Source: Bryoerythrophyllum caledonicum
Lineage: Eukaryota; Streptophyta; Bryopsida; Pottiales; Pottiaceae
Assembly: GCA_963971425.1 (NCBI GenBank)
Contig: OZ020514.1
Coordinates: forward strand, 17,023,406-17,087,405
DNA: 64,000 nt
Direction: 5' to 3'
Part shown: positions 3,397 to 53,756 of the stretch, piece after piece
How positions within the stretch are numbered: position 1 is the first letter of the stretch
Layout of the letters: the number at the start of each line of letters is the position of its first letter
The notes under the pieces: generated by a model
What the model saw: the letters and a program-made list of their open reading frames with translations, nothing else
Database searches by the model: none
Told to the model about the DNA's origin: nothing
Made by a program: the position numbers and the translations under genes

Positions 3397-3422
3397 GTAA
3401 TTGATCCCCTTCATTATCAAGT

Positions 3423-3543: not shown

Positions 3544-3619
3544 CTCTCATGCTTGCCTCTCTATTTTTGATTGCTTTAGTTGTCGTATTTAACTCATTTT
3601 TTTGTCTTGTCTTTCGCAG

Positions 3620-6402: not shown

Positions 6403-6769
6403 TTTCAGAGGCTTCTATTTTGTACTATTGTAGGCATTTAGTATCGACATTGTAAACATTCTTTTACATTCTGAATATAAAAATACTTTAAAACTTCAAC
6501 AAGGTTTTTTGTAACTTATTTTCATTGTTTCGTGTTTTTCGTTTCATATGTGCTTCTATTCATCTTTTGGTCGGTTCTAGGATTTATCATTGTTTTCAGT
6601 ATTTTTTTTATCCTCTGGTCGAGATTACTGTGTTTATTGTGGAAACAAAGTAAACTGTATTTCTTCAGGCTTGGTTTCATATTTTTCTTCGGATCGAGCA
6701 TGCGTTGGATTGCTGTGACTGTTGTTATGTCCTACTCATCGCTTCTTTCATCACGTGTGTCTTTTGCAG

Positions 6770-7534: not shown

Positions 7535-8386
7535 ACACAATGAGGTGGTTCAACCATTTCTTCTAGTGAAGGGGGTACTCCTAAGTAGGAACAATTGTAT
7601 ATGCTTCAGGAGTTCTTCCATGTTTTGTTATAGAGACGATAGAATAGATCCTAGACTACTATAAACAGAAATCTGCTTGCAATTGTCTATTGTGGTAAAC
7701 AATGTCATGAAAATAAAATTTTAGTATTATTATTTTCCATTGTACTCACTCTTCTTTGACTATGGATGGAATTAATTTTCTCTATGACGATCTATTAATA
7801 GTATGTCTTGTGTAATGCAATTATGGAGCGTCCCAATGATCATGTTGTTTTATTGTTGGATCGGGGATGTTTCTCGTATGTTATATGATGTATGCCTCTA
7901 TTTGCAACAACTTTTCACCATATTTGTTTCCGAAGTAACAGGTTTTTAGTCTCAAATCTCATGTTTTGTCTTATTTTAATGAATATGGTGTTAAATGGTC
8001 TCCTTCAGATCCCACCCGCCGCGATGCGTAGGCGGGGTTTGCAGCTTCTTCTAGACAGTCCACAAATGCAAGAGAATGGCGCAACATGGACTCACGAACG
8101 TCAAAGGACTTTTTTGAAGACGCATATACAGGCTTATGGAGGAACTCCCTAAACAATTTAATTAGTGATAGGACGATTGTGTTTTGCCTCGGGGTAAATG
8201 AGTGTTGTTCATGACTTTCTTTCATGAAGTTTTAAATAAAGCTTGGATTAATAGTATATGCTTCTTTTACCGTTACCAATTTTTTGGACATTTGGCTAAT
8301 TTGGTCCATCCATGGAATGAAATATAGTATTTGCGGTACATTGTCTTTATGCTTTGCACCTACAAATGTCTACGTATATTGATATT
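7535..8386. other. Non-coding, AT-rich
   Basis: No supported gene. The only notable structure is a short GC hairpin (CCCGCC 8015-8020 with GGCGGG 8031-8036) in otherwise AT-rich DNA. Confidence 0.4.
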
Positions 8387-19225: not shown

Positions 19226-22200
19226 ATGGAACCAAATGTAGATCTAGAACTTGAACCCGACCTTGCAGGGCAAGACTACACAGATATCACTTCCTCAGAG
19301 AATCATTTGTGGCCCGCTGGAACTGCCTTCGACAACTTAGGCCACCCCCCTGTTGTGAGCACGACTATTGCCGTGCAGATGACCCGTGTCAATTTCCCTC
19401 CGCCCCTGTAGGACCTGGCCTGCACGGCCGTGAACCTCATCACTGCCTGTCGAATGTTCCCCACCTTGGCCTAGGCAGTCAGCCTGTACCAGAACACGTG
19501 CCTGATTCTGTGCCCTGCCCACCTGACTTCAAATGCCCTAGTCTGGCTGCCACTGACATACCGCTACAATCTTTCAAGAAGCCCTGGTCAAGGAATATTT
19601 TGGAGAAGGTTCGCGATAGTGTACAGAGGCCACCACCCAGACCCCTCGATCGCGCAGATCTTCAATGGAGCGATAAAGTGAACCAAGGGGGAGGAAAAAA
19701 AACCATTAAGATGGCCACAATATCATGGGACAGATTGGAGGATTTCCTTGAGGGTGAGATGAGTACTCGACCTTACCCTTGTACCTTTCTTGAGGACATC
19801 AATCACAATTTCAAGAGCAACAGAAAGGACATTGAGAGAACACAAACCCGGTCTGAATCTGCCATACAAGAAATCAAGTAAGTATTCCTTGCCAATAATT
19901 ATTGATTTACATTACATGCCCCTTTAATAGAGATCAATCCTCACATTCCCGACTTTCTTTTCTTCAAGTTTACTTGCCAATTTGGCCAGGAGCACCGCTC
20001 AAGCCAGTATAAAGCTGAAGTTTAAAGAGTATTCGCCCACACTTTGACGGACCGGCGGAAGTCCACCAATCGAAACAAAACTATCCAGAGGGCGAAGAAG
20101 ATCATTCAACAGTCTGTGATGGCTGCGACGGGGAAATACAAGGGCACAAAACGCAGTCGGTCACAACTAGAGAGCACAACCGAGAAAGAAATTGATTTGA
20201 ACGTTGAGGCCATCGAAGAGCAGGCCACGATCCAGGAGGCCCAGGCCAAGCTTCTGGCCGCACAAAAAACTATTGACAAAGCCGCTACACCTAGGCGCAA
20301 GACCCGAGTTGGCATAATACAGGCAGGTATGTCAATCAAACGAGGTTGTCAATGTTGCTTTGTTGCAAAACAACTTTTGCTCGATCCAACCTTGTGCACG
20401 ATACACTTCCATTGTATGGACCACATCAACAAGGAGGGGAATCCTTGCCATGGTCTAGATTTTGGTGGCCAGAGGGTAGGGTTATCCGGTTGACTTTCAC
20501 AGGCCACAAAGGACTGGATTCAGAGCTCTCTACGAAGTGGAAAGTCTCCAGCTCAAGTGATGGCTGACCACAAAGCGGAGGTTCTTCGTTGTGCTACATT
20601 AAACTTACTAGCGACTAGGGATACGTTTGTCATGCCTAGGGATGTCTACAACATCGCTAAAATCCTTGCTAAAGAACTTTGGGAGAAGCACCCCCGAGAT
20701 GCCCTTAGTGTTCGAATGTGGAAAGAGGAGAATCCTGAGTCGTTCTACCATTATAACGAATATGGGAACATAGATTTGAATGAGCCTCCACCAAATGACG
20801 ACCCCTTCTCCATCGCCATCCAAACTGAGTGGCAGCTCCAAATGATGGTAAGACACGGAAATAGACGTGCACTTGGGATAGATGCCACCTTCGGTACAAA
20901 TTTGCCCAAGGTACCCAATCACCTAAACCTTGCCTGCATGATGTTGCATCCACATTTCTTGTTGCTCTTCTAACTATTTGATTGTGTCTGGCTTGTAGTA
21001 CCCTTTGTACACAGTCATGGTTTTTGACGAGTGGGAACAAGGTATTCCAGTGGCATTCACAATTCATGGAAAGAGCCGTCAAGAGGACATTGTTGTTTGG
21101 CTCAAGAAGCTTAGAGATCGATGTATCTCGGTACAACCAGGTTGGCGGCCTAATGCTGTCGTCACCGATAATGACCAGGGTGAATTGAATGCCATCAGGT
21201 ATCACGGTGCCCTTCCTAACATGGCTTAAATATTGCAGCCCGAACATGCGTATTACTGGCCATAGAACTAAACTTGCCGGGATTTCTGTATAGGGAGGTG
21301 TGGCTTGAACATGATGGCATTGACGGGGTTAAGATCTTTCTTTGCCTATGGCATGTACGCAAGGCCTGGCTTGAAAATGCTATACTAAAAATCAAGGCCA
21401 ACTACCTACGTACTGACATTTCAAAGGATTGTGCCGATTTAATGTACAGGAATGGAATTCTGGAGGGCGAGTCTGCAGTGCAGAATTCCAGGGCCAGGTT
21501 CGAGCAGCTACGGAATAAGTATGGAGACGGGGCCAAGACTTTCTTCAACTATTTGAAAAAGACTTGGATTCCAAAGCTAGAAATGTGGGTTACAGGATTC
21601 AAATCTGTTCCACATGCAAATCAGGATACAAACGCCGCTGTGGAGAGCTATCATGCTAATCTGAAGTCCATATTGTCCACTTCAAGGCAGAAGTTTAACG
21701 GCCGTCACGTGGACTGGTTGATACGCGACTTGGTCAAGGATGTCTTCACTCACTATTGGTACGCCGTTCAGTGCAAGCTCTTCGGTTTTATCAAGAACGG
21801 GAAGGCGGAAGGTATGTTGGCCAGCGCCGTCATCCGAGCTAGGGAGATTCGGGACGGGCATGTTTTTGTGGACTTGGACCAAGACATTGCGTATGTGGCC
21901 ACTCAGACGAACTTCCCAATGGTGTGGGTGGTGGCAAGCCCTAACACAGACTGGGCTCGTTGTACGTGTCCTTTGGGGATGCGGGGGAACATTTGCAAAC
22001 ACGTTGTGAAGGTGTTTAAGCTTGTCAATGTCAGAGTACAGGACGCGGCCATTGTACGGTACGCCGGAACTCTACGGAGTACCATTGCTATAGGAGGAAT
22101 TCCTGCTGGCCTGGAACCTCCTAAGGTGGGTGGAGTGCCTGGCGCAACACAGACCCAAGGTAAAAATGCCAGAGACATTGACACATCAAATCCGCAAAAA

Positions 22201-22485
22201 CATTTGGCGGATATCAAGTCCACTTGGGCTGATCTCCATGACTTTGCGATTCAAAACGCAGACTTGCGGGGACATTTGTTGGCTGGCCTCAATGAATTGA
22301 AGGGCAAGGTCTCAAGCTTGAAGGCGAGAGCTGATGCTAGCATCCTACATCCAGCATCTCAATCGTTGTTTCACTTAAATGAAGGGAGTAACACCAAAAG
22401 GCGATTCAAAGCATGTAGTGAATTAGGTAGACATAAGTCTGGATCATTCATGAGGCCAGGTAGACGGCGAATAGGTGGCTCATAG
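19226..22485 (+). mobile_element. MULE transposase gene with zinc finger and SWIM domain
   Basis: Coding blocks run in order. 19226-19877 is an N-terminal Pro-rich region (frame change near 19395; donor GTAAGT). About 20000-20910 has a basic helical region and a Cys/His cluster GCQCCFVAKQLLLDPT...HFHCMDH...CHG, like FAR1/FLYWCH fingers, with a TGA at 20491. It then reads ALGIDATFGTN, with the first catalytic Asp. A phase-0 intron at 20911-20998 joins this to YPLYTVMVFDEWEQGIPVAF (20999-21198), with the second Asp in VVTDNDQGELNAI. The last block, to 22485, has LCLWHVRKAWLEN, a Glu in NAAVESYHANLK, and a SWIM finger (CTCPLGMRGNICKH near 21963-22004). A 1-nt mismatch at the 21199-21238 junction and the TGA suggest recent inactivation. 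The superfamily makes 9-10-bp target duplications; terminal repeats not found. Confidence 0.85.
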
Positions 22486-29430: not shown

Positions 29431-29517
29431 AAGGTTGTCCAGCAACAAAGGAAGGGCCCGGCTACCGACAGCATAGGCCAGGACCTCACCGGGTGAACAA
29501 GGTAAAAGGGAGGGGTC

Positions 29518-30954
29518 ATGGCTTCCTCCAATCCAGTCCTATCTTCGGTAAGGGCCATCTCCCCCGCCATCCCCAAGGATCCACTTGAGCTTGCCGAACT
29601 CAAGGAGGACCTCCTTCGCATGGGATGTCTCTCCCTCCTCGACTTTTGTTGGAGTTTCTGCATCAAGTCTACCGTGCAAGAACTAAGGCAAGACCCATTA
29701 CTGGAACCGGAGAATGATAGTATCCGGGCTTGCCCAGGCTGGTGGACTATGGGGAAGTGGCAAGAGGTATACGAGTTTCCTCGGCAGGGTGCAGAATGGA
29801 CGAGTTTGAAGAAGGAGGAGTATGGCAAGGGACGATTCGACACCAAAGACTCCAAGAATGGTTATGGTCTGAAGGATTGCATAGACTCTCGAGCCCGACG
29901 GGTCTTTGCATTCCTCATACCCATTCTACACCCTGAAAAACCCACGCGAGTCACCACGACTTTTGCTAACACCGTGTATGGATCGTATTTAGGAGAGAGG
30001 ATGGTAAATTGGGCCATTATTGTGAAGGACGTAGTACTCCGGTTGACCAAGAGTGTTGGCAATGCCAAACGCTCTCCTCTTTGTCCCTTCTTGATCCACC
30101 TCTATCATCACTTCAAGGAAACAACGCCAGAGGAGACAACGGCGTACGGGACTCATTTGATGATGAAGAAGTTCCAGGGGACAGAATTTGAGTGCGAGTC
30201 AGGTTCTGAGGGAAGAAGCACTTCCTCCCCATCAGAAGAAGAGGCGCCTCCACCCCCCAAGCGTCAGAGAAGGAAAGAGGGAGGAGCCCCTTCCACTCGG
30301 ACCCGAGCCGCACTCCGCGCCGCAGTTACCGGACCCGCACACCTCGGAGACAAGACATACCGGGCATCTGAACTAATTGAGGCTTTGCGTGTGTACGTAG
30401 AAGACACCGACAAGACCTTGGCACATGTGAGCAGCTTGGTGGGCAATCCACCCATCCAAGGACTAGTCACTGCGGTCAAGGAACGTATAGGAGGAGCGAG
30501 TGACCTCCGTAGTATGGAGCAGAAGGTCCACCGGCTCACCCTTGAGATGACCAAGATGAAGAGTCGGGCCTTGGAGGCAGAGAAGAGGCAAAAGGAAGCT
30601 CTTCTCGAAGCCAATGCCTCTATGGAGGCATTACAGCAAGTGGAGGGTACCTTGCACCTACCTGCAGATGTCGTATTCAAGGCCCGGATGTTCGATGCTA
30701 GGTTGGAGAGAGACGACCATGTTTCGAGCAAGAGGGTGATCGCATTCAAGATGGAGCAAACCGTGAAGGTTGAGGAGGCTTATGCCAACATGAGGTTATT
30801 GGTAAGCAACCTCACACACATCTTACCCAAGTTCGTGGATGACTCCGACAGCTCAAACAAGGACGGGGATTCGGACTCCAACACGGAAGATTGCGGCACG
30901 GGCAACAAGGGGAAGACTGTGGTGGACCTTGACAGTCCAACTCCTCTCGTATGA
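29518..30954 (+). CDS. gag-like protein of an unidentified retroelement
   Basis: An uninterrupted 478-codon frame. The first ~220 residues are globular, with a segment TVYGSYLGERMVNWAIIVKD and CPFLIHLYHHFKETTPEE that resembles the capsid-like domain of plant-lineage retroelement proteins; this is from general appearance, not a firm match. Then come an acidic Ser region, PPPPKRQRRKEGG (basic, NLS-like), and a coiled coil (about residues 320-380). The C-terminus is acidic, ending KTVVDLDSPTPLV, which resembles a SUMO-interacting motif. The frame continues after the TGA (30952-30954) to 31485, so the stop may be a CGA-to-TGA change. Three minisatellites precede it. There is no protease, RT or integrase beside it. 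Confidence 0.45.
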   Translation: MASSNPVLSSVRAISPAIPKDPLELAELKEDLLRMGCLSLLDFCWSFCIKSTVQELRQDPLLEPENDSIRACPGWWTMGKWQEVYEFPRQGAEWTSLKKEEYGKGRFDTKDSKNGYGLKDCIDSRARRVFAFLIPILHPEKPTRVTTTFANTVYGSYLGERMVNWAIIVKDVVLRLTKSVGNAKRSPLCPFLIHLYHHFKETTPEETTAYGTHLMMKKFQGTEFECESGSEGRSTSSPSEEEAPPPPKRQRRKEGGAPSTRTRAALRAAVTGPAHLGDKTYRASELIEALRVYVEDTDKTLAHVSSLVGNPPIQGLVTAVKERIGGASDLRSMEQKVHRLTLEMTKMKSRALEAEKRQKEALLEANASMEALQQVEGTLHLPADVVFKARMFDARLERDDHVSSKRVIAFKMEQTVKVEEAYANMRLLVSNLTHILPKFVDDSDSSNKDGDSDSNTEDCGTGNKGKTVVDLDSPTPLV

Positions 30955-31485: not shown

Positions 31486-32562
31486 AAACTTACGTCTATA
31501 GGGTAAGGATGTTGTTTCGTAGGTCACTGTTCATTCCGGGATTTGGCCCCCGATTGACTTTGAATTTGACTTAGTTTTGCCTGGGGATTTGTGTAATAAG
31601 TTACCTTCTGACGGTACACGTCGTGTGGAGTGACAGCCACCGCCGCCAAGGGTAGTTAATGCGCCGTTTCTAGTTAGAAGGTATCGATTGCTTTGGACGT
31701 TAGTGTGAGTTTGCTGCAGTATAAGAGAGGAGTCTCGAGGCACCTCTCTTCACTGCTTGTTCTGTGCATTTGCTTTCAGTTTAATTCTAAACCTACGCTC
31801 TCAGAAAACCTTCGATGGTTGGAGAGCTCGGATTCCATACATGATTGTGAGTGCCATTTCAAGTAGTCCACTCCTCAAATTTGTACTAACTATCAACTCA
31901 TTGTTTCCTTGTTCCATCAAGTAGAGTTAGTCCGGGTAGATGGGAATAACAGGTGAGGTGGGGAGATAGTTAGTAGGGGTATGACTCTAACTCTAAATAC
32001 TTACAATTGTTTCCTTGTTCCATCAAGTAGATTAGTACGTGTGGGTGGGAATAATAGGTGAGGTTGCAAGTGTCTAGGGAAGGACGTGGGGGGAGTGACG
32101 GATGTATAAGGATCCTAGCGAGTCTTGAGTGACCTTCTGACAACCGATTAGTGTCGGTTGTGAGGGCTCGGGTCGACCCTGAAACATCCTACCTCCAGCC
32201 ACATCGGATGTGGAGGGAGACTGAGAGGAGGACGGATAGTGGGCGGGTAGGCCCCTTACTCACTTACATTACGCCCCTCACAGTTTTGGAAACACAAGTC
32301 TAACATCCCCTTCGGGGAGATCTCAGTGACACCATAACCATTCAAGTGAGTGAATGGAGTTAGAAGGAGAGAATGGGAGGAAGAGTATCTGTTACTTGTG
32401 TCAAACACTAAAATCTCTGTGAGTCCTCGGATCATCGTCCGTGGTGATAAAAACCCCTGTCGGGTACGCATGTACTCTAGATATCCATATTATGCATAGG
32501 TGTAACTATAAGCCCCAGATCTAATCTAAAGTTTGAGTAATAAAAGTCCTTCCTACCCGTGC
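31486..32562. other. Non-coding, possible retroelement 3' region
   Basis: No supported gene. It contains an inverted repeat AAGAGAGG...CCTCTCTT at about 31723-31750 and a short duplicated phrase (TTGTTTCCTTGTTCCATCAA at about 31902 and 32007). It could be LTR or leader of the element carrying the gag-like ORF. Confidence 0.3.
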
Positions 32563-32733
32563 GAGGTAGGACGTACGAGGTAGGACGTACGAAGGTAGGA
32601 CGTACGAAGGTAGGATGTACGAATGTAGGACGTACGAATGTAGGACGTACGAATGTAGGACGTACGAATGTAGGACGTATGAAGGTAGGACGTACGAATG
32701 TAGGACGTACGAATGTAGGACATACGAGGAGAC
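32563..32733. repeat. 15-bp minisatellite, about 11 units
   Basis: The unit is GTAGGACGTACGAAT with few variants. The period is divisible by three, so it is open on both strands, reading (VGRTN)n on plus and (SYIRT)n on minus. These ORFs are treated as artefacts. Confidence 0.95.
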
Positions 32734-33357
32734 AACAAGCGTACGAAAAGCGGGGTAATTGGTGTAATTAACACCCAGGCTTTGTGATCTAAACCTTCAT
32801 TCCCTCCTTTCTTTTGATGTGTCTATTGTATATTCGACATTGTATAGATTTTTGGCTTGATGTTAGTCGTTGTAGTTCTCGGTGACTCTCTGTGGGAACG
32901 ATTACCTTAAGGATATCTTTGTGTTAAGATGTAAATACTTGCCAACACGTACTACGACATCAATCACGGTGGCCATGATGATAAAGGTTGGCAATACTCT
33001 TCAAAAGCCAGATCTGAATTTCCTAAACCCTAAACCGTACACCCTACCTATTAATTAACTCTAAAATCCCCTGACCTATCATAAACCCTAAACTAAGTTT
33101 AATATGAGCAATGTTACTATGGCCGTGAGAGGTGCATCTTGGCTTGCGTCATTCGCCCTGGCATGGTGATGGTGGAGCAACCAACTGTTGAGATGGCGGT
33201 GATGCAAAAACTGGCCTGCTGCTACTAAGGGCACAGGAGGTTTGACAGCACTTATCAATCACAATAAGGTTTTGGAAAAAAAAAACAATCAAACATGGAA
33301 AAGGTCAGATGGGAGAAATATAAGAGACTAAAAGGAAAAATCACCAAACTCTGACAT
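32734..33357. other. Non-coding flank of the retrotransposon
   Basis: No gene. A few CCCTAAA-like heptamers occur at about 33022-33100. ACAT at 33354-33357 is repeated at 42974-42977 just beyond the other end of the element, a candidate 4-bp target-site duplication. Confidence 0.35.
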
Positions 33358-33463
33358 TGTCGTGTAAAGAAAGATCGATAACCACAACAGATCGAGAGCC
33401 CTAACCAACATCAAATAAACGAAAAACATACACTAAAACAAGTATACGTAATACACCCTCAAG
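33358..33463 (-). repeat. 106-bp direct repeat, outer copy
   Basis: It begins TGTCGTGTAAAG and ends CACCCTCAAG. It is identical to 33756-33861 apart from one C/T difference, and lies outside the left LTR core. It is absent next to the right LTR. Confidence 0.9.
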
Positions 33464-33753
33464 GAAAGATGTATGAATCACAAGTAGTCAAGCGTCTCGC
33501 ACTCCACGAAGGAAGAATCAACGAGTGCGAGTGGAACTAGAGAATGTAGAGTCTTTACTAATGACAAACCATCACTAACAAGCAAGGACTCACTAATCAC
33601 TCTCTAAACACACTCACAAAGCTTGACTTGACAAAGACGTCAAGTCAAGGACGTGCGCCGCCGTTCGTCCCTAAACACACGTAGATTAGTAACAAACTAA
33701 TCTACGCTAAAATCTACGATACGAAGAGACCCTCGACGCCACGTCCCGTGACA
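33464..33753 (-). repeat. Left (3') LTR core
   Basis: Matches 42610-42973 from GAAAGATG to GTGACA, with one A/G substitution (33724) and lacking 66 bp. It contains three perfect hairpins: 9-bp arms 33496-33504/33523-33531, 11-bp arms 33622-33632/33639-33649, and 11-bp arms 33680-33690/33696-33706. Confidence 0.85.
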
Positions 33754-33755
33754 GC

Positions 33756-33861
33756 TGTCGTGTAAAGAAAGATCGATAACCACAACAGATCGAGAGTCCT
33801 AACCAACATCAAATAAACGAAAAACATACACTAAAACAAGTATACGTAATACACCCTCAAG
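33756..33861 (-). repeat. 106-bp direct repeat, inner copy
   Basis: Lies between the left LTR core and the internal region, directly beside a C7 run (G7 on the element strand) that would suit a polypurine tract. If plus-strand DNA starts there, the 3' LTR would begin TGAGGG at 33859. Confidence 0.85.
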
Positions 33862-34176
33862 TGCCCCCCCTAGCGGATAAAGAGACCCTCTATCCAGCTA
33901 GGACCAAACAACACTAATAAGACTAAACGCCACGGTGATGTCGCTGCAACAACTGTACGCATCCAGCCAAAGATGTCGCCGTCATCGAATCAATAAGCAT
34001 ATGAAGAAGTAACAAAGAGATGGTAGGCCGGGTGCAATGTGAGCCCCATCTTTAATCGCCTTAGGCAATTTTATTGCCAATCCCTTGGTCAATCTCCACG
34101 TTGCCTATCCCTGAACCGAAACCAGGAACTCCAACTGGATGGCAACGCACCACACAATGACAAGTCTATGAGGAAT
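33862..34176 (-). other. 3' untranslated part of the retrotransposon
   Basis: Non-coding, between the pol stop and the 3' repeat, with the candidate polypurine tract at its left edge. Confidence 0.5.
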
Positions 34177-37100
34177 TCAAGCCGTTTCATCGGGTGAAAC
34201 GTGACTCGAAGACCTCCGACAACGAGGGCAAGTCCAATCCCCGGACGGTTGAGTAGAGAGAGGCGGCGTCAAGCAAGCCATATGCCAACCACGCTGGTAA
34301 TGGTCACAAAGCAACATAGTAGCCGCACCCTTCTTCTCACCACACACAAAACACGGAAGACCTTGTGGCACAACGGCCAACTCAGGATGCACGGAGCCAT
34401 CAATGGGCAAATGGCAGGGCGCGCAGTTCTTGGAGTGCTCCCGACACTCCCGGCCATCTTTGCCTTCCAGCAACAAGATGCCACTGGGCAACACATCCTT
34501 CACACGAAGAATGGTGCGCCCGGCCTTGACGTCTAACGTCGTAGGCGCCTCACGTTGCAAATAAACGTAATCTCCAGTGGAGAAACGCCGCAACTGAGGT
34601 CGATAAGCGCCGCTGCGAATGCGAGCGTACCGTAATGTGTCGCGGTGCTGAGCGATGGATAAATTCTCCATGGCCATTGGCATGGCCCGCTTGAAGAACT
34701 CCGCTCGGTCACGCAGACACTGGATCCAGACCTCTGGATCATCCAAGTCCACAACTGGGGCCAACTTCTCCCGTACAGAACTGGGTAGAATCGGCTCCCG
34801 TCCGTACAACAACTGATACGGACTGAAAGCGGCCAAAGAGGCCTGCCGACTAAACCGGTATCCCATGGCGATCCATGGTATCATCAGATCCCAATCACGG
34901 TGGCCACCCTGACGTAATCCATACTTCCGTAGTCCACGCTTGACGGTCTGAACCACACGCTCCGCCAAACCGTCTGCTTCCGGATGATCCCGAGAAGTGG
35001 TACGGTGGTCAATCAAAGCCTTGGTGCACAAAGCCTCGAAAGCACCAAGGAACTCACGCCCTTGGTCAATCAACACCTCAGCTGGGGCTCCAAAACGAGC
35101 GAGCACCCGGTCAAGGAATGCCATGGCCGCCAACTCTGAGGAGTTGTGTGGTAGTGCCACAAGCTCAATCCACTTGCTGAAGTGCTCCACCATCACCAAC
35201 ACGTACTTGGCTCCACGTGGGGTGACAACAAGTGGCCCGGCAAAATCCAGAGACCAACGGTAGCCCAAACCCATGATGGGCAAAGGCTGCAACTGTGGTG
35301 ACAAGGTGTTGAAGCTGGATCTGACCCGATCACAGACTTCACACCGTGAAACGTACGTGGCAACGTGCTGATACATGCCGGTCCACCAATATTGACTGCG
35401 CAACATCGAATGAGTCCGCCGGACGCCAAAATGGCCAAGGTCTTCGTGTACCTGCCGTAGCAACGAAGCCCTCTGATCCGGTCTGGGAACTATGCGCCTA
35501 CTTCCATCCGGCCACAACCGAAATAGAAGGCCGTTCTCCCAACGGAACCTCGCTATCCGGTGTCCAACTCGATCGCGCTCCATGGCCGAAAGAGCGGGCG
35601 GAAGTGTGCCATGTTGCAGCTTGTGCAAGACTGGAACGTCTTCCCACACGTCGCTAACAACCTGGGCCTTGTCCGGTTCCTCATCCGCTGCCATATCAGG
35701 CAACGTCGATGTGGATCCAGACATCAATGTGAGGTAGGCTGCTGCATGCCACCGCGGGACTGACTCTCTGTCACAATCCCCATGCCACCTGGCACCAGTC
35801 AAATCCTCCTCCGATGGACTTGGATTGCGAGATAGACCATCCGCATCCAAGTTCGTGATGCCCGCCCGGTGTACAACCTCAAAATCATACTCCTGGAGCA
35901 ACAAAGCCCACCTCGCAAGCTTGCCAGTAAGCTTGTCAGACTCCATGAGCCACTTCAAAGGCTGGTGGTTGGTCACCAAAGTAAAACGTTGCCCATACAA
36001 GTAGGGCCTAAAATGAGCTATGGCCCAAACCGCGGCCAAGGCCTCCCCCTCATAGGACGAATAGTTGGACTCCGCGTTGTTGTTGCTCCTAGAAGCAAAC
36101 GCCACAACGTACTCCCGTCCCTCATCATCCTTTTGAGTCAACACGGCTCCCAATCCTACTGCACTCCAATCTGTGTGCAAGTGGAAAGGCCGTGTAGCAT
36201 CTGGACGCCGTAGTACAGGCGCTGAACCGAGCTTCAGCTTCAAAGTAGCAAACGCCTGTTGTCCCCAAGTCCATGGCTGATCCTTTCCCGTGAGAAGAGT
36301 CAAAGGCTTAGCAATCAAGCTAAAGTTCTTGACAAACCGGCGATAGTAATTTGCCAAGCCAAGAAAAGCTCGAAGCCGTGACACGTCGATTGGGGCTGGA
36401 ATCTTCTGCAACGCATCCACCTTGGCCTGTTGTACGCCAAGACCCCCTGGAACAATCATATGCCCCAAATATGGTAACCGGTCGTGAAAGAACTTGCACT
36501 TGCCATGGTGCAAGCGCAATCCCCACTGTCGTAACCTCTCAAACACCGCCTGAAGATGCCTCACATGCTCCTGTGGGCTGCTACTAAAAATGATAACATC
36601 ATCAATGTAGCATCGGGCAAACGGTAAACCGGTCAACACCCGGTCCATCACCCTCTGAAACTCAGCGGGTGCGTTCTTGAGGCCAAATGGAAGAAACTTC
36701 CAATGGTAGAGCTGATCTCTCCCATCCAGATCAACTCCCCAGAACGCGGTCTTCACCCGGTCTTCCACCATCAATGGTAACTGGTGGTAACCGGACCGTA
36801 AATCAAGAGTACTAAATACTCTGGCCTGTCCCACCGCATCAAACAACTCCTCTGGCGTGGGCATGGGATACCGATCCGACTTGGTCTTACGATTGACCGG
36901 CCTATAATCCCCACACATCCGCTTCTCCGTCCAGTTGCCAAAGATGTCCTTCTTCGATGGCATCACCGTGGCACAAGCGTACTCGCCGTTGGAGAGCTCA
37001 ATCAAGCTGGCGTCCAACAACTCCTGACAACGAGTTTGAACCCCAACTTTCTCAGAGAGACTGAGCTTGTACGGTCGTCGGAAGATCGGGTGGTCGTCCT

Positions 37101-37299
37101 CCAATTGAATGTAAATCGGTTTGCCTCTGTAGCCCTCTAAATCATGGAGACTAAAGGCAAAACAACTACGATACGAACGTATAAACGCTCGTACCCTTCG
37201 TGCCTCTGCACCGGTAAGATGTGGCCCCAAATCCAAAGGCCAATCATCAAACTCCGTGGTCTCCTTCTCCACCGTAGAAGACTCACCGCGTACCGGCAC
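34177..37299 (-). CDS. pol: pol: reverse transcriptase, RNase H, integrase, PHD finger
   Basis: An open frame of 1040 codons; the GTG at 37299 is probably not a start, and the frame continues up to the TAG at 37312. RT: VFSTLDLRSGYHQL (Asp166), LPFGLKNAPAEFQ, YIDD (231-234). RNase H: HTDWS (Asp377), YEGEALAAVWA, and TNHQPLKW, where the usual Asp of TDH is Asn444. Integrase: H618, H623, C653 and C656 zinc motif; core Asp685, Asp745, Glu780 with 34 residues between the last two. The end (981-1027) is a PHD-type finger CFVC...MLLCDHYQRGWHMACLTPPL...DWTCPRC, in which the usual fourth Cys (CDxC) is Tyr1001. PHD fingers read histone H3 tails, so it may guide integration, where other gypsy elements use chromodomains. 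The Cys and Asp substitutions may reduce function. Confidence 0.92.
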   Translation of the reverse strand: MPVRGESSTVEKETTEFDDWPLDLGPHLTGAEARRVRAFIRSYRSCFAFSLHDLEGYRGKPIYIQLEDDHPIFRRPYKLSLSEKVGVQTRCQELLDASLIELSNGEYACATVMPSKKDIFGNWTEKRMCGDYRPVNRKTKSDRYPMPTPEELFDAVGQARVFSTLDLRSGYHQLPLMVEDRVKTAFWGVDLDGRDQLYHWKFLPFGLKNAPAEFQRVMDRVLTGLPFARCYIDDVIIFSSSPQEHVRHLQAVFERLRQWGLRLHHGKCKFFHDRLPYLGHMIVPGGLGVQQAKVDALQKIPAPIDVSRLRAFLGLANYYRRFVKNFSLIAKPLTLLTGKDQPWTWGQQAFATLKLKLGSAPVLRRPDATRPFHLHTDWSAVGLGAVLTQKDDEGREYVVAFASRSNNNAESNYSSYEGEALAAVWAIAHFRPYLYGQRFTLVTNHQPLKWLMESDKLTGKLARWALLLQEYDFEVVHRAGITNLDADGLSRNPSPSEEDLTGARWHGDCDRESVPRWHAAAYLTLMSGSTSTLPDMAADEEPDKAQVVSDVWEDVPVLHKLQHGTLPPALSAMERDRVGHRIARFRWENGLLFRLWPDGSRRIVPRPDQRASLLRQVHEDLGHFGVRRTHSMLRSQYWWTGMYQHVATYVSRCEVCDRVRSSFNTLSPQLQPLPIMGLGYRWSLDFAGPLVVTPRGAKYVLVMVEHFSKWIELVALPHNSSELAAMAFLDRVLARFGAPAEVLIDQGREFLGAFEALCTKALIDHRTTSRDHPEADGLAERVVQTVKRGLRKYGLRQGGHRDWDLMIPWIAMGYRFSRQASLAAFSPYQLLYGREPILPSSVREKLAPVVDLDDPEVWIQCLRDRAEFFKRAMPMAMENLSIAQHRDTLRYARIRSGAYRPQLRRFSTGDYVYLQREAPTTLDVKAGRTILRVKDVLPSGILLLEGKDGRECREHSKNCAPCHLPIDGSVHPELAVVPQGLPCFVCGEKKGAATMLLCDHYQRGWHMACLTPPLSTQPSGDWTCPRCRRSSSHVSPDETA

Positions 37300-37305
37300 G
37301 GCCGG

Positions 37306-37314
37306 TGATTGCTA
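37306..37314 (-). promoter_or_regulatory. Candidate leaky stop: TAG CAA TCA
   Basis: On the element strand the methyltransferase frame ends AAG TAG CAA TCA and pol continues in the same frame. TAG followed by CAR-YYA is the tobacco-mosaic-virus type of readthrough context. The stop could equally be a CAG-to-TAG mutation. Confidence 0.55.
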
Positions 37315-40008
37315 CTTGGTAGCACAGAGGGCTTTAATGCCCCCAGACCCCTCACTCACAGAATCTACAGAAAATCCCGTGTCGTGATGATAAAACTGGG
37401 AAAAGATATCTCGAGCATCCTCACGGCCAAAGTCCTCTGCCAAGGCTGCAAAGACACGCTGAGCACGAAGCTCCTGAGCTGCATGTCTCTTCAATCGAAA
37501 AAGCAACTCCGCTTCCTCGATCTCTGTGAGATGTGGCACCGCTGCCCCCTGACCATCAGAGTCTGCCCCCAGCACGCGTGGATGGTCACTCGAACGGCGT
37601 TGAGCGGCGAAACAGAAACCACATATCCAAACAAGGGTGTTGAGGTCAATGGCTTGACCTAACAAATAACGGCGTTGTCCCTCAGAGATATTCGGTGCGG
37701 CGGTGGTGCCTGTTAAAAAGCCCATCGCCCGCTCCCTCTCATCGGCAGAAGGCTCCTCGAAAGTTTGGGAAGAAGAATCCCAAACCATGCCCGGACCGCG
37801 TGCTCTGAAGGCAAAAGAGCCTCGATAGCACATCAAAGTGGGAAATGCCCCCCGAGTGAAACCAACGCGGTTGACCACCGCCAATGGTGGCTCATCATCC
37901 TTCGTAACCTCCGTGGAAACACGGTGGTCGTCTAAAATGTCATCAACCTCATGGCGCACGGGCCGTTGCACTTGAGCAAGTGCAGAAGTGAGCGTCGTGG
38001 ATGATGCCATGTTGGTCCAAATCCAACGTGGCCGATGGGCGTAAGATCCCAATGCTGCGGCATCAACAAACGTAGGGGGACCAAGAAGGTGATGGATGTA
38101 CGCCCCATCCTCACGCACTTTCGTCCGTATATCCCCCAATGGGGGTACATTCTCAAAAATGTACCCCGGTGGTGTCGATTGGTGGGTAATCCACCACTGG
38201 ACGAGCCTAAACAAATCCGCAAAGAGACCCGACCGTGGATCATCCAAGCCACGTCCACTTCCCGCCCGTGAATGGCCTTGGCAAGGCCATCCGGCAATCA
38301 CCAAGTCCACGTGACCTAACCGGCGAAGATCATCCTCACTGATCAACGTCACATCACGTGGCAACTTGCCAAAACATCCCCGAATGGCAGAAGGTGGTAA
38401 CTGCTCCGGGTACAACGCCAGAAGACGCTGAATGTGGTGGTGAGCAACTCGATTGGCTGCAAAGCCACTATCGACGTGAATGTACCGGCGTACCTTGAGC
38501 CCAGCTTCTAACACAGCCGCGAGCCCCGTACCGATACCGGCAAATAGCTCCACGAGGGTAATACCGTCATCTGGTGGTCGCCACTGAATTGTACGAGCCA
38601 ACAACGGAGTAGAAGAGTCCACTAAGAGATGTGGAGCATCCAAAGCATCCACAATCTCCCGACTCTGACGGGTAAGCTCCAACTGAGTTCCCCAAGGCAG
38701 AACTGGATCCTTGCAATGACGTGCAGGGATCTGTAGTGGTATGTACTCCCGTGATTCCGCTACCCCCGACATAAAAGCATATGTCTCCTCCAAAAGCGTA
38801 GAACCACATGGCAAATCAGAAGCCAACGCACTGCACCCAAACATAGCGTCCGCCGTGGAAGTCACCGCGCTAGCTGCGAAGACAATCGGAATGAGCTCCT
38901 TTCTGCCATCACCGGCAGACCACCCAGGCCTAATCCAGGCCTCCTCCGTCCAATTATCCACTCCAAAACCGAGAGGATAAAATGCTTGCTGACCCACCAG
39001 AATGTCATAGTTGGTGGCACCAGTCACAGCACACTGAAGGGATACGTGGGAGAACAATGGACCAGATCCGACACCGAACATCAACTGTAACGGATGTCGG
39101 GTGTACCCCATGGCCTTCTCCGTGCCTCCAACCGATGTAACAATCGTAAATGGGCAAGGCTCGAGGTCCGAAGCACCTAGACCCAAATCCAGGGCTAGCT
39201 GCTTGCCAATCATCACTAGCTGAGCTCCAGAGTCCAGCATAACACGGAAGGGGGTAGCTCGAGTGGGGTTGCCGTCCGTACGGCTAACCACCATGACTCC
39301 GTCGTCATTCACCAAACGTACAACCCCTAGACGCACACTACGGCGCTCTCGTGCCGACCGGGCTGCAATGTCAGATAAATAAGCCACTCCAGAGATCAAT
39401 GACTGATCCCCGGAGGACTGCTCCGTAGGTGTGGAAGTGGCATTGGCCCTAAACACGGAAATAGCCTCCGCCGCCAACTTGGCCCGCAATGCCACCAAAT
39501 CCTCCTCGGTGGGTGGAGCCGTCACCGCCTGCGACACCTCCAATGAAGGCATGGGCACCTTGCCCTCCAACATACTACCTGCCAAGTGGAATACACCAAA
39601 TGGTCGAAAATCCGGTGTCAGAAAATCCACACCGGCAAATACGGGCAACTGCAACACCTTATACGCCAAGGTGTGTGCGGCATCCCCATGAGTGGAAGAA
39701 AGCGGTGGGACCGGGGGCGGAGTGGGAGAGGCAGTAGAAATAGCCGCATCCGTGATGCCAAAAGAAAGTGGTAGCCGGGACTGACCAATGTGGTCCGGCA
39801 AACCCGTGTGGCGTGGACGGCCACTACTAACCGGCACAGAGGATGAAGGTGCCACTGCTTGTGCAATAGTCAGAGCACGCGTGGCCACTGCTGCCACCAC
39901 CTCCCCTGAAGCGCCATACAAGTAGCGGTCTAGGACTGAAGATGAGCCCTGACCCCTCGATGGAGGCCGTGTCTCTGCCACTTGCCCCAAAGAAGCCATC
40001 GCACTCAT
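37312..40008 (-). CDS. Retropepsin-like protease fused to cytosine-C5 DNA methyltransferase
   Basis: An open frame of 898 codons. Residues 1-200 are low complexity. A retropepsin-like segment spans about 225-350: FRVMLDSGAQLVMIG (Asp259-Ser-Gly-Ala) with ILVGQQAFYPLGF later. A C5 methyltransferase domain spans about 483-795 (38562-37624): motif I LVELFAGIGTG (485-495), motif IV AGWPCQGHS with catalytic Cys576, motif VI FENVPPL (Glu619), motif VIII SYAHRPRWIWTN (655-666), and a motif IX/X-like end RRYLLGQAIDLNTLVWI (779-795). The order is the usual I-IV-VI-VIII-X, not the permuted DRM order. PCQ is like Dnmt1/Dcm-type enzymes; AHRxRxxWTN recalls DNMT3. All key residues are present, so it may methylate cytosine using S-adenosylmethionine. 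The last 100 residues are Glu/Arg-rich. Frame is shared with gag upstream and pol downstream. Confidence 0.93.
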   Translation of the reverse strand: MSAMASLGQVAETRPPSRGQGSSSVLDRYLYGASGEVVAAVATRALTIAQAVAPSSSVPVSSGRPRHTGLPDHIGQSRLPLSFGITDAAISTASPTPPPVPPLSSTHGDAAHTLAYKVLQLPVFAGVDFLTPDFRPFGVFHLAGSMLEGKVPMPSLEVSQAVTAPPTEEDLVALRAKLAAEAISVFRANATSTPTEQSSGDQSLISGVAYLSDIAARSARERRSVRLGVVRLVNDDGVMVVSRTDGNPTRATPFRVMLDSGAQLVMIGKQLALDLGLGASDLEPCPFTIVTSVGGTEKAMGYTRHPLQLMFGVGSGPLFSHVSLQCAVTGATNYDILVGQQAFYPLGFGVDNWTEEAWIRPGWSAGDGRKELIPIVFAASAVTSTADAMFGCSALASDLPCGSTLLEETYAFMSGVAESREYIPLQIPARHCKDPVLPWGTQLELTRQSREIVDALDAPHLLVDSSTPLLARTIQWRPPDDGITLVELFAGIGTGLAAVLEAGLKVRRYIHVDSGFAANRVAHHHIQRLLALYPEQLPPSAIRGCFGKLPRDVTLISEDDLRRLGHVDLVIAGWPCQGHSRAGSGRGLDDPRSGLFADLFRLVQWWITHQSTPPGYIFENVPPLGDIRTKVREDGAYIHHLLGPPTFVDAAALGSYAHRPRWIWTNMASSTTLTSALAQVQRPVRHEVDDILDDHRVSTEVTKDDEPPLAVVNRVGFTRGAFPTLMCYRGSFAFRARGPGMVWDSSSQTFEEPSADERERAMGFLTGTTAAPNISEGQRRYLLGQAIDLNTLVWICGFCFAAQRRSSDHPRVLGADSDGQGAAVPHLTEIEEAELLFRLKRHAAQELRAQRVFAALAEDFGREDARDIFSQFYHHDTGFSVDSVSEGSGGIKALCATK

Positions 40009-40029
40009 CTGCTTTTTCAGCTCCGCCAG

Positions 40030-41361
40030 TTAAGCCTGCAGTGTCTTCACCGCATCCGATCCAACAGCTGAAGACCTTGGGCGCTTCTCTGGATGAAGAG
40101 AAAAGCAGTTCTCATCAGTGTGGCCAGTCTTGCCACAGTGAGAACATGTCACAAGCTTGTTCCCCTTACCCCCAGCCTTCTCTGCAGGCTTGGCTGCCTC
40201 AGTCTTGGGCTTGGCCTTCACCGCCCCTGCCCCCTTCTTCTTGGAACAGTTGGGGTCCCCCTTGGTGTGACCAGCCTCCCCACAAGCCCAACAATGCACA
40301 ACCTTTTCAGGTTGTGCCTCTGCCAAGCTACCGGTGGCGGTGGCAAGCTTCTTGGGCTTGGGAGCCTCTAATAGGGACGTCACTAAATCAGTGGCCTCGC
40401 TCATGCCCAGTGCTCTATCGAGCGCTTCCACCTCGGCCAACGCCTGAGCCAAAGTGGCGTTGCCATGATACCGAAAAAGAAGATGTGGACTAATCAATTC
40501 CACCATCCTCTTGTCCAACTTGGAGATGAAGATCTTCACCAATTGGCGCTCCGTGAACACATCACCAGCCTCAGCTGACAACCGTGCCAACCGGGTATAC
40601 ATGGTGCGTGGGGTATCCTCCTTCTCCCGGCGGAAATCCTGGATGCGCTGCATCTGATCACGCCTGAAGCCCCCGTACTCCACCTCTAAATGCGCCATGA
40701 ACTGCGCTAGAGGACCAAAGGCAGGCGGATCGCCAACCGCCATCAATGCCGCACGTGTGGCAACGGCCAAACGGGACATGGCCCCCATGCCAACCCGTTC
40801 GCCCACAATGGCAAGACCCTTGCCCCTAGAGTCCTCCCCGAAGAGACTCTCTTCCACCTTAGGCTCCTCGGTGGAAGTCGGCAGTTGGGCAACTGCACTC
40901 TCCTTGAGCGCAGTCACCAACTCCACACGCTGGCGCCAGTACTCCTCAACCGGACGTAACTGTGACTCGTGCTGCGTAGTCCACTTCCCGTACGATTGGA
41001 GCGCTTCTAGCTCCAAATGCTGGGGCAAAAGCTCGAACGCATACCAGTCGTTAAACGACGGCGTCCGCTGGCGCTTCTCCTTCATCCAGGTTTGGAATCG
41101 GAGCCGCCAATCGGGCAGGGAGATGCCCCCAGCCCGTCCCGAGAACCTCTCTCGCACGACATGACGGAGATCGTCCTCCATGTCGTCAAACGTGCCCACG
41201 CCCCAGACCCGAAGCCTATGATCGGTATCCAACGCCGAAATAGGCTCAAAAGCCTCGTCGGTATCCGACCCTGGCCCAAAATCTGTGGTGGAAGCACTCT
41301 CCGAGTGGTCTGGTGAGGGGGAGCGGTAATACCGACTCCGGGTACTCACCTTAAACAACAA
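40030..41361 (-). CDS. gag: gag: capsid/nucleocapsid with two zinc knuckles
   Basis: 443 codons starting at ATG 41361. The N-terminal third is acidic and Ser-rich. A retrotransposon capsid-like region spans about 215-325: AQFMAHLEVEYGGFRRDQMQ, FRREKEDTPRTMYTRLARL, LVKIFISKLDKRMVELI. Two zinc knuckles follow: CWACGEAGHTKGDPNC (widened C-x2-C-x4-H-x6-C) and CSHCGKTGHTDENC (canonical C-x2-C-x4-H-x4-C), separated by a Lys/Ala-rich linker. The ORF ends TAA at 40032-40030; seven codons later the next ORF starts at ATG 40008 in the same frame. The reading across the stop (LQA, stop, LAELKKQM) looks like a continuous coiled coil, so TAA may be a mutated CAA. It would form the particle shell and bind the RNA. 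Confidence 0.9.
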   Translation of the reverse strand: MLFKVSTRSRYYRSPSPDHSESASTTDFGPGSDTDEAFEPISALDTDHRLRVWGVGTFDDMEDDLRHVVRERFSGRAGGISLPDWRLRFQTWMKEKRQRTPSFNDWYAFELLPQHLELEALQSYGKWTTQHESQLRPVEEYWRQRVELVTALKESAVAQLPTSTEEPKVEESLFGEDSRGKGLAIVGERVGMGAMSRLAVATRAALMAVGDPPAFGPLAQFMAHLEVEYGGFRRDQMQRIQDFRREKEDTPRTMYTRLARLSAEAGDVFTERQLVKIFISKLDKRMVELISPHLLFRYHGNATLAQALAEVEALDRALGMSEATDLVTSLLEAPKPKKLATATGSLAEAQPEKVVHCWACGEAGHTKGDPNCSKKKGAGAVKAKPKTEAAKPAEKAGGKGNKLVTCSHCGKTGHTDENCFSLHPEKRPRSSAVGSDAVKTLQA

Positions 41362-42609
41362 CCACCTCGGGACCTATCTACGGGTACTATCTAAAAGGTA
41401 AGGGTACGAACGGGCAACCTGCACCTGCAAAATCACCAAACTTTGTGGTTCACCGGTCATTACCTCCGGCTAGCACAGGTCCAACCACAACCCCCCACAT
41501 AGAAAGGTCTTGCCGGCCATGAACCCGACTTCACCCCTACAATACCCTATCACAATCTGGGACAACGAGAAATGGGGCCACCGAAAAACACCGGCAACAA
41601 GCCCGCAACATGGGGGAGGTACCGCACAAGAATCGAGAAAATCCAAACCGGATCCTCTCCCCCAACAACATATAAGCAAAATTGACAAAAGAGTCAGAGC
41701 CACTGGCACACGCCTGCAGTGGATGGCTCCGAGTCGCAACACCTGCAAAAGCAAAGAGAAACAGTGCAAGGTGTTCCCCCAATGTCTAAAACTAAGGAGG
41801 TAATAGAATCCTATGGTCACGGTGTTCAAAAACACTAGTCCCCCAACAAAGTTCAAACCATGGGTGACAAACGTGCCAAAACGTCAATCCAATACTAGAA
41901 TTGGATAAATGACGAGATTCCTTAATTATAAACGCAAGTTTCACTCAAAACTAGAGTAAAACTGCACTAGCTAATTACCTCCGAAGTTAGACACTAAACA
42001 CTTTTTTTTTTATTTTATTTTTTTATTTTTAATAGATCACATAACATGTGATTGTTTTCGGGATGTCCGAAAACTCACCAAAAATTTTTTTTGCAAACTA
42101 GAAATTTTTTACACCACTAGTCTTAGAATTCTTCCACGAACTCAAATTCGAAGTCAGAATTGAAAAATAATAAAAACTCCAAAAGTTGGGTTTTTGATGT
42201 TTCAACTCCAGGGACTCCCTGAAATTTCAGTACTCAAAGTAACGGAATTGGGAACTTCGGCACGGTTTAGGGTCCCTAACGGAATTGCGACCCTAGTGCA
42301 AATGCGTACCCGGATGAAAACTGCCCCGAAAGGATGAAGTCGTGCGCAGTGGATGAAACGTCGATATTGGATGAGAAATCGCAAATTGGATGAAACTGCT
42401 GAAACTCCAGAAACTCCAGAAACTCCAGAACTTCTTGCTCCACAACTTCCAATCTCCACAACTTCTCCAAAAATCGTCCGATTTGGGCGCCGTCGGTGGC
42501 GTCGGCTTCGTCTCCGCGCGCTCTACACGAAAATTTAAACTACCCACAATTTTTTCAAATCACTCAATGTCAAATTTGAGAACTATTGCAAGAAACGTAG
42601 GAAGGTCTT
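41362..42609 (-). other. Retrotransposon 5' leader
   Basis: Non-coding 1.25 kb between the 5' LTR and gag. On the plus strand it has several GGATGAAA words (42313-42390) and a 9-bp tandem repeat AAACTCCAG (about 42398-42430). AT-rich around 42000-42120. Confidence 0.6.
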
Positions 42610-42973
42610 TGTCAAGTGAAAGATGTATGAATCACAAGTAGTCAAGCGTCTCGCACTCCACGAAGGAAGAATCAACGAGTGCGAGTGGAACTAGAGAATG
42701 TAGAGTCTTTACTAATGACAAACCATCACTAACAAGCAAGGACTCACTAATCACTCTCTAAACACACTCACAAAGCTTGACTTGACAAAGACGTCAAGTC
42801 AAGGACGTGTGCGGCGCTATACGCACACGCAAACAACCCTAAGTGGATGAAAATCATCCACGGATGAAAACGGTGCGCCGCCGTTCGTCCCTAAACACAC
42901 GTAGATTAGTAACAAACTAATCTACGCTAAAATCTACGATACGGAGAGACCCTCGACGCCACGTCCCGTGACA
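42610..42973 (-). repeat. Right (5') LTR
   Basis: Starts TGTCAAG and ends GTGACA on the plus strand, giving TGTCA/TGACA termini. It contains the same three hairpins as the left core (42650-42685, 42776-42803, 42900-42926). A 66-bp segment missing from the left copy holds a fourth hairpin (GTGGATGA/TCATCCAC near 42843). Confidence 0.85.
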
Positions 42974-43339
42974 ACATGGAGAAAGAACAGACGCTTATCT
43001 TAAACACGCCTAACCCTCAATGGAAACTAGAAGCCAGTGCTCGCAACTGGCTTGCAAATTAGCGCTCTTGCGACCCTGACCTTCATCTTAACCGTGTCCA
43101 ATAATCTCCCTAATCACGAAACTGTAATACAACACGCCTTCCTGTAAGCTAATTGCGCAACCAAAAAAACACCACACCTACTCGAAAACAACCACAGTCG
43201 ACACACCTAAGCAACTCTCCACATTGCATGTACCGCCTAAATGCCCAACCTAAACATAAACATCCACGGCCAACAATCCAAAGACAACAAAACAAAAAAC
43301 ATGACAGTAAGAAACTAAGGCACGAAAAAAACCCGAAAC
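42974..43339. other. Non-coding flank
   Basis: Starts with ACAT, the candidate target-site duplication. No gene recognised. Confidence 0.4.
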
Positions 43340-52385: not shown

Positions 52386-52885
52386 TGAGCCTCACCAACT
52401 ATTCTACAAAAAAAGGGGGGCAACACCAAATGCAAAAGGCGGAGAGAAAGTTCAAAGTGCAGAGCCAGTTTTCGCAGGGCGGTGGTGGTGAGAAGTGTTG
52501 TGTGCACGCCACCCTTGCCTCGGATCTCTGCTCCGATTCCCCGCACAAAGCTCTTCGAGTGGTCGTGCCAAGGCGGTGATATATCGGAAGCGGTGACGCG
52601 CACGACATCAATCTTAATTCCACATTGCCGCCTTGCATGGTGGAATGCTCGCTGTAGGAAGCGACAGAAGAGAGGAGAGAAGAGGAGAGTAGGGAGGAGA
52701 GGGCAGGAAAGGTTGTTAGGTGTTTGTGGAATGCTTAGGGCACACCATGGCGCGACTTTAGGAAGCGTCCTTGTGGAGAGGGCAGGTGAATAGAGGAGGA
52801 GAGAGCAGGAGAAATTGCAAATCGATTGGTGGAATGGTTAGGGCGCACCATCTCTCATCATCGCTGTGCTTGTTGGCGTGACATT

Positions 52886-53756
<871 letters not shown>

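Follow-up and report, generated by a model that had tools for sequence, protein, structure and literature searches.

A Ty3/gypsy-type retrotransposon with split direct repeats, a Dnmt3-like methyltransferase and a PHD finger in the moss Bryoerythrophyllum caledonicum, and its possible integration from circles

We studied a stretch of 64,000 nucleotides of Bryoerythrophyllum caledonicum DNA (GenBank assembly GCA_963971425.1, contig OZ020514.1, positions 17,023,406 to 17,087,405 of the forward strand; hereafter the window), which contains a Ty3/gypsy-type retrotransposon encoding both a C5 DNA methyltransferase (DNMT) and a PHD finger. The element occupied exactly positions 33358-42973 on the minus strand, flanked by ACAT on both sides, with gag, then protease (PR)-DNMT, then reverse transcriptase (RT)-RNase H (RH)-integrase (IN)-PHD. 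Its repeats, A and B, were distributed as A1-open reading frames (ORFs)-B1-GC-A2-B2, i.e., as split direct repeats of the DIRS/PAT kind. The explanation that we favour, and consider somewhat probable as a whole, combines insertion from a circle, production of DNMT at the level of Gag, and tethering of the integrase by the PHD finger. In its fullest form, which we hold more tentatively and at slightly below an even chance, a retrotransposon with a DDE integrase would normally integrate from circles of joined long terminal repeats (LTRs) through a palindromic site in the LTR, and a Dnmt3 packed at Gag level would mark the DNA before the PHD-integrase places it in chromatin unmethylated at H3K4. 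This would be a split, mobile version of the histone-read, DNA-write logic of the host.

Repeat organization, priming and a possible circular route

Pfam searches revealed RVT_1, RNase H, H2C2, rve and PHD (2e-8) in a 1040-aa frame and DNA_methylase (3e-11) in an 898-aa frame; a retropepsin match in the latter was just under the cut-off (22.0 v 24.3 bits), and a zinc knuckle match in gag was also below it. The PR-RT-RH-IN order, the DDE integrase (D, D and E, with 34 residues between the last two, plus H2C2) and the short target site duplication of 4 bp are those of Ty3/gypsy (Metaviridae-type) elements, and the integrase of a relative (P0052) had Ty3 as its best PDB match. Identical LTRs as integrated termini were not found, the arrangement being A1...B1-GC-A2-B2 in 20 of 21 copies. 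Pfam detected a PHD and no chromodomain at the integrase C-terminus, so that the element is not a chromovirus by this feature, and none of the three frames gave a tyrosine recombinase match. A previous sequence-only reading of the window had described a minus-strand Ty3/gypsy element with a complete-looking methyltransferase between protease and RT and a pol ending in a PHD instead of a chromodomain; the Pfam domains, the exact ends and the ACAT flanks, together with the ordered methyltransferase motifs (see below), agreed with it. It had also seen near-identical LTR cores and a recent move. The insertion is indeed recent, since A1 and A2 of the window copy differed at 1 of 290 sites, apart from a 66-nt deletion in A2, but the label of LTR had to be abandoned for that of split direct repeats.

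A 501-bp DNMT probe gave 703 first-look candidates in the 437-Mb genome of 894 contigs, and 40 DNMT places, that of the window included, were scored at 90-100% identity. Of the 39 others, the 20 whose DNMT was most similar were read as one 5' and one 3' piece each, the middle of the RT-IN frames lying outside the pieces. Within these pieces, the 20 copies repeated the domain order of the window element and kept both DNMT and PHD, the loss of either being one outcome that the earlier reading had named as fatal to its proposal. A chimeric assembly or a private fusion was rejected on the basis of the 40 places, the 20 copies of the same order and a relative in an unrelated assembly (L049), 89-91% identical to the window element in its two pol frames.

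The order B-2 nt-A-B was present at the 3' end of 20 of the 21 copies, the exception being c4, which had no A2-B2, and none of the 21 5' pieces showed a match to B ahead of A1. Exact target duplications of 4 bp, directly adjoining A1 and the last B, were found in 18 of 20 testable copies (A1 of copy c7 lay outside its fetched piece, so its duplication could not be assessed), and one further copy had CCTC on both sides. Copy c4 consisted of A-ORFs-B between GGGT repeats, and copy c1 of A-ORFs-BgcA-BgcA-B, i.e., three LTRs, between AACA repeats; both were cut at the same GC, and together they fit circles of one, two or three LTRs. A 31-mer of the B-GC-A junction occurred exactly 68 times in the genome (its reversed control, 0), and among the first 20 of these junctions beyond the copies already in hand, 16 continued as B-GC-A-B to the end of B2 and two (L057 and L072) contained part of B2. 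Differences between A1 and A2 averaged 2.7 within copies v 7.9 between copies, and the nearest A2 was that of the same copy (ties counted) in 14 of 19. Tandem repeats do undergo exchange, and the three-LTR copy c1 could arise in this way; nevertheless, a rearrangement of the repeats of an ordinary LTR element subsequent to its insertion, through recombination or gene conversion, seems very improbable, since the same order was flush with the duplications mentioned above and recurred in further subfamilies with A at 82-92%, and A1 and A2 of copy c18 were identical, yet 8% different from the A of the window.

The sequence ACTTGACAAAGAC next to A1 was the exact reverse complement of A1 positions 182-194 in 19 of the 20 copies with A1 (c17 had a 1-nt insertion). 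No shuffled sequence (0/2000) reached a self-complement of 13 nt. It was also present in all five further copies with A1 from a DNMT-diverged group (two of them with A at 92%), a sixth fetched piece of the group showing no A1, and in L049 the last primer pair was changed on both sides so that 13 pairs were kept. The core TCTTTGTCAAGT was conserved in 10 of 14 further A2 sequences, being absent in L057, L062, L066 and L069. A TATA-like GTATAG was located about 30 nt upstream of the RNA 5' end predicted from the sequence; Tf1 primes in this manner with the first 11 nt of its own RNA (PMC7175516). At the other side, a G-rich tract (six or seven G, with GCA at its end) was immediately 5' of B1 in all 21 copies and more varied in the further loci. 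With a primer binding site (PBS) after A1 and a polypurine tract (PPT) before B1, U3 begins at B1, U5 ends at the end of A, and the LTR corresponds to B-GC-A. The normal LTR would thus have CTTGAG and TTTC as tips, and the palindrome GACAGCTGTC within it would mark the integrated ends, of TG/CA type. If each strand of the palindrome were cut after CA, a 3' CA and a 2-nt overhang would remain, the form made by retroviral integrases.

These positions suggest the following cycle. Transcription would start near A1 position 182, and the first 13 nt of the RNA would fold onto the site after A1 and prime the first strand, as in Tf1; the second strand would be synthesized from the PPT before B1. The product would be an ordinary linear DNA with LTR B-GC-A, whose tips would not be what integrates: they would be joined (A|B) into a circle, the integrase would cut the palindrome GACA^GC^TGTC inside an LTR, and the opened circle would be inserted with a 4-bp duplication. 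The outcome, A1-PBS-ORFs-PPT-B1-GC-A2|B2, would equal a two-LTR circle opened at the GC of one LTR, and the insertion would still be transcribable into a complete R-U5...U3-R RNA. In the biology of retroviruses and LTR elements, two-LTR circles count as dead ends. If the proposed cycle is true, this family, whose insertions contain one, two or three LTRs between 4-bp duplications, would be a natural system for testing circles as integration substrate, and it would provide a route for split direct repeats to exist without a tyrosine recombinase.

Several observations weigh against insertion from joined-LTR circles. Copy c17 had no target duplication and c9 matched at 3 of 4 bases. Among the 20 further junction loci, L059 and L061 had no B2 match, the joint had one extra T in L057 and was rearranged in L065 and L069, and the set represents at most 18 independent insertions because L054/L055 and L066/L067 have the same 3' flank per pair, i.e., are duplicated segments carrying one insertion. 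L049 (positions 1-9285) had ends identical over 127 nt and a period of 9158 bp and closed as a one-LTR circle; it may be a true extrachromosomal circle or a collapsed assembly graph of integrated copies. Finally, the A2|B2 joint was flush in 19 of 20 copies, and a search of exact flanks gave only two places with added bases; end joining is usually less clean than this. A flush joint makes a templated, DIRS-like circle possible, in which the internal B1-GC-A2 would serve as a splint to restore and join both ends during reverse transcription, and the integrase would open the circle with no joining of LTR tips; the same repeat order exists in PAT/Ngaro elements (PMC4157794). We consider this alternative rather unlikely, given that PBS and PPT are exactly where a conventional LTR B-GC-A requires them and that added bases of the kind expected from joining did occur: one nucleotide each at two A|B joints in a search of exact flanks (the total of exact joints being uncounted), besides the T of L057.

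Methyltransferase, conserved stop and PHD finger

The DNMT domain presented, in unrearranged order, the C5 methyltransferase motifs that we take to be I (ELFAGIGTG), IV (GWPCQ), VI (FENV), VIII (AHRPR) and X (GQAID). Its best PDB matches were DNMT3A and DNMT3B (E about 3e-9), and those with DRM proteins were far weaker (0.007 to 0.05). By motif order and similarity the domain is of the Dnmt3 kind, closest to DNMT3A/B. DNMT codons were covered and free of stops in 19 of the 21 copies (window included) and those of gag in 14 of 21. The PHD zinc ligands were intact in 17 of 20 fully fetched copies: the window copy and c18 had lost one ligand each, and in c3 a stop interrupted the finger; c10, whose PHD was partly fetched, was left out of the count. 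The window copy is young but damaged, with a private stop at the gag/PR boundary, one PHD zinc ligand changed to Tyr and the 66-nt A2 deletion. Among the 21 copies the ratio of nonsynonymous to synonymous polymorphism (pN/pS) of DNMT was 0.19, lower than in the other four gag-side segments. The corresponding divergence ratios (dN/dS) against L049, which take in the own damage of the window copy, were 0.09 for DNMT (bootstrap 0.05-0.15), 0.16 for PHD (0.04-0.41) and 0.02 for integrase. Both DNMT and PHD are under purifying selection; relaxed selection on DNMT, the other outcome that the sequence-only reading had feared, did not occur. As a separate observation, synonymous diversity in the other copies across window positions 37312-40029 was about five times higher in DNMT than in protease codons (pS 0.080 v 0.016), which suggests exchange between subfamilies.

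A DNMT that no longer methylates DNA and serves the particle instead by binding nucleic acid or as a structural component is improbable in our view. A DNMT from a LINE-type retrotransposon failed to methylate DNA in yeast, but a DIRS-type Dnmt3 was reported to methylate CG (PMC5890265). Likewise, Glu replaced the Pro before the catalytic Cys in at least 21 of the 46 relatives with DNMT, IN and PHD in one frame (see below), but the clade of the window element kept all five motifs together with the low dN/dS given above. The CpG content of the element, not depleted relative to its flanks (0.85 v 0.76-0.78), counts against methylation by its own enzyme, and CpG depletion as a sign of self-methylation was discarded. 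Private C>T changes were more frequent at CHG (0.0100) than at CG (0.0069) and CHH (0.0041), a pattern that fits a plant-type methylome and would be the footprint of host-type methylation of the copies, not of the element's enzyme.

The gag, PR-DNMT and RT-IN-PHD segments were all in one frame. UAG CAA UCA was present between DNMT and RT in 23 of 23 sequences, namely in each of the 21 copies, in L049 and in an older copy involved in a nested insertion. The frame continues open after it, and it agrees with UAG-CAR-YYA, a motif described for efficient readthrough (PMC3542737). The stop at the gag/PR boundary was private to the window copy, 19 of the 20 others having a sense codon in frame and one being frameshifted, and programmed signals at both stops were rejected, as only the DNMT/RT UAG is conserved. 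The PR-DNMT frames of seven metagenomic relatives (P0001-P0004, P0006-P0008) ended at the matching residue. The older copy (L009:1-1735) is a DNMT element, about 83% identical in PR-DNMT, in which copy c0 is nested and which kept the UAG CAATCA context. Since this conserved UAG and its readthrough context follow DNMT in frame, production of DNMT at Gag level, together with Gag and protease, is probable, and RT-IN-PHD would be made only after readthrough. Gag-PR-DNMT would be the main product, to which readthrough would add RT-IN-PHD at low level; DNMT would enter the particles at Gag stoichiometry and could methylate the new complementary DNA before integration.

The PHD residue located two positions before the zinc His was Gly in 115, Ala in 3 and Pro in 2 of 120 sequences, and Trp in none; PHD fingers that read H3K4me3 have a cage Trp there. 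The solved PHDs nearest to that of relative P0052 were those of MLL3, CHD4, WSTF, KDM5B, KMT2D, KDM5A and ATXR5, with DPF2, PHF12, PHF21A, UHRF1 and AIRE, among others, further down. Several of the nearest bind unmodified H3 tails, a property shared with the ADD domain of host DNMT3. The PHD thus resembles fingers of the unmodified-H3 kind, an assignment based on sequence similarity and on the ligand classes of these neighbours. Some PHDs do read H3K4me3, and such a finger would direct new copies to active promoters; with no Trp in the 120 sequences and with these nearest neighbours, we judge this alternative quite improbable, a shade more so than an inactive DNMT. The absence of the cage Trp and the unmodified-H3 neighbours imply that mapping of insertions against H3K4 marks, as the earlier reading proposed, should mean absence of H3K4 methylation. 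The finger would tether the integrase to H3 tails without K4 methylation, where CG-methylated new copies would match their surroundings.

Relatives of the element and other features of the window

The searches gave 47 DNMT matches, with Marchantia, Calypogeia, Closterium and Sphagnum as named sources, and 471 integrase-PHD matches, of which 120 were listed; named sources among those listed were Haematococcus and Volvox. The PHD profile was matched by 119 of the 120 listed (P0082 had no PHD and P0151 a weak one), a share biased because the query contained the PHD. DNMT, IN and PHD were in one frame in 46 of 167 retrieved proteins, 44 with DNMT next before IN and 2 with DNMT before RT. The pairing, which the sequence-only reading saw correctly but did not know from elsewhere, is therefore not private to this element, and some relatives have one domain only. 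The second DNMT position formed one clade (97/99) in a DNMT tree of 47 chosen rows and was on one side of a 100/99 split in an RT tree of 53 rows, with two rows without DNMT inside; one capture followed by relocation and two captures are indistinguishable because the outgroup branch is long. The Glu for Pro exchange (GWECQ) mentioned above was seen in the proteins of this position (P0045-P0163) and also in Closterium. Two contigs that, judging from isolate names, presumably come from soda lakes (L052-L053) encoded PR-RT-RH-IN-PHD in one frame with no DNMT match, and Closterium P0040 had DNMT and no PHD; DNMT and PHD are thus not strictly coupled, another point against the combined reading. The viral contigs searched contained no relatives.

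L049 is filed as a Synechococcales (cyanobacterial) metagenome-assembled genome (MAG), yet it is a eukaryotic retrotransposon, i.e., contamination. The contigs L050-L053, which are assigned to MAGs of Halorubrum, Mollicutes and Halanaerobiaceae, encode Gypsy integrase-PHD proteins, 47-48% identical, and are probably eukaryotic contamination as well.

Table 1 Features of the retrotransposon in the window
Feature	Position	Strand	Evidence or remark
Target site duplication, 5' side, 4 bp (ACAT on +)	42974..42977		Exact in 18/20 testable copies
Repeat A1, 356 bp, starts TGTCACGGG; contains TATA-like GTATAG (42818-42823) and 13-nt self-primer segment	42618..42973	-	
GTCTTTGTCAAGT, predicted RNA 5' end / self-primer	42780..42792	-	Perfect reverse complement of PBS
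Primer binding site ACTTGACAAAGAC, immediately 3' of A1	42605..42617	-	13-nt complement; 0/2000 shuffles; two-sided change in L049
gag with two zinc-knuckle motifs	40030..41361	-	Pfam match below cut-off
Premature in-frame stop at gag/PR boundary, only in window copy	40030..40032	-	
Retropepsin-like protease (DSGA)	38839..39318	-	Pfam match just below cut-off
Dnmt3-like C5 DNA methyltransferase domain	37519..38598	-	Pfam, PDB matches, motifs
DNMT motifs I, IV, VI, VIII, X	38524-38550, 38278-38292, 38146-38157, 38023-38040, 37645-37659	-	
In-frame UAG then CAAUCA (fits UAG-CAR-YYA readthrough motif)	37306..37314	-	Also in L049
RT, RNase H, H2C2 integrase with DDE, PHD	34177..37299	-	Pfam
RT YIDD	36598-36609	-	
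Integrase D, D, E	35236-35256, 35059-35073, 34954-34974	-	
PHD finger	34219..34353	-	One zinc ligand Tyr in window copy (within 34294-34308)
Polypurine tract TAGGGGGGGCA, immediately 5' of B1	33862..33872	-	
Repeat B1, 106 bp, terminates ACACGACA	33756..33861	-	
Palindrome GACAGCTGTC at B1-GC-A2 junction, predicted integrase cut site	33750..33759	-	
Repeat A2	33464..33753	-	66-nt internal deletion in window copy
Repeat B2, 3' end of insertion	33358..33463	-	
Target site duplication, 3' side (ACAT on +)	33354..33357		

Elsewhere in the window, an array of 15-bp tandem repeats (32550-32757) lies near the 3' side of the element, and a long GA-type microsatellite (52826-53458) yields spurious RERERE frames. 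Positions 21220-22485 contain a transposase fragment that we take to be MULE-like, with a SWIM finger match under the cut-off; the only named matches of this ORF were to Ceratodon purpureus (2 of 68). An open frame of 482 aa (29506-30954) had no convincing Pfam family (FAM91_C at 0.007, below cut-off).

Comparison with known systems

The nearest described system is KnitGypsy-Dnmt3 of Klebsormidium nitens, an element with Gypsy domains whose repeats follow the DIRS arrangement (De Mendoza et al. 2018, PMC5890265); the sequence-only reading had rightly pointed to a methyltransferase retrotransposon in this alga. Both elements have a Dnmt3-type domain in a Gypsy pol, DIRS-like repeats and a DNMT under purifying selection (Ka/Ks < 0.2 there), a likeness drawn from description, not from sequence. 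In contrast, the words PHD and chromodomain are absent from the main text of that paper, and we saw in its account neither a readthrough stop nor a self-primer or a circle model. The DNMT of the window element is upstream of a stop before RT. Split direct repeats are known for tyrosine-recombinase elements, and the A1-B1-A2-B2 order is shared with DIRS, PAT and Ngaro (PMC4157794); unlike them, the window element has a DDE integrase and 4-bp target duplications, and no tyrosine recombinase by Pfam. As in Tf1 and Sushi, its predicted RNA start is complementary to a PBS at the LTR, over 11 nt in Tf1 and 13 here (PMC7175516, PMC6317226). It differs from them in that the LTR tips would not be the integrated ends, a PHD replaces the chromodomain and a DNMT is present.

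Integrases with a C-terminal PHD are found in Volvox and Haematococcus proteins (P0050, P0098, P0131), and the two from Volvox (P0098, P0131) also match the DNMT profile; unlike in the window element, DNMT is before the integrase there (after RNase H in P0131), and identity over integrase-PHD is 47-48%. Chlamydomonas REM1 is a green-algal Gypsy element with a PHD, encoded in a separate inverse ORF and not on the integrase; we know of no DNMT in it. The literature searched, with subscription papers and preprints outside its scope, contained no account of PHD and DNMT together in a Gypsy element, nor of such elements in mosses. Relative to these systems, the PHD pairing across many relatives, the apparent readthrough position of DNMT, the putative self-primer site and a candidate mechanism for the repeats would be new. 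The combination of DNMT and PHD recurs in elements of the green lineage and is under purifying selection here, and it permits a test of whether retrotransposons benefit from putting host-like DNA methylation on their own sequence.

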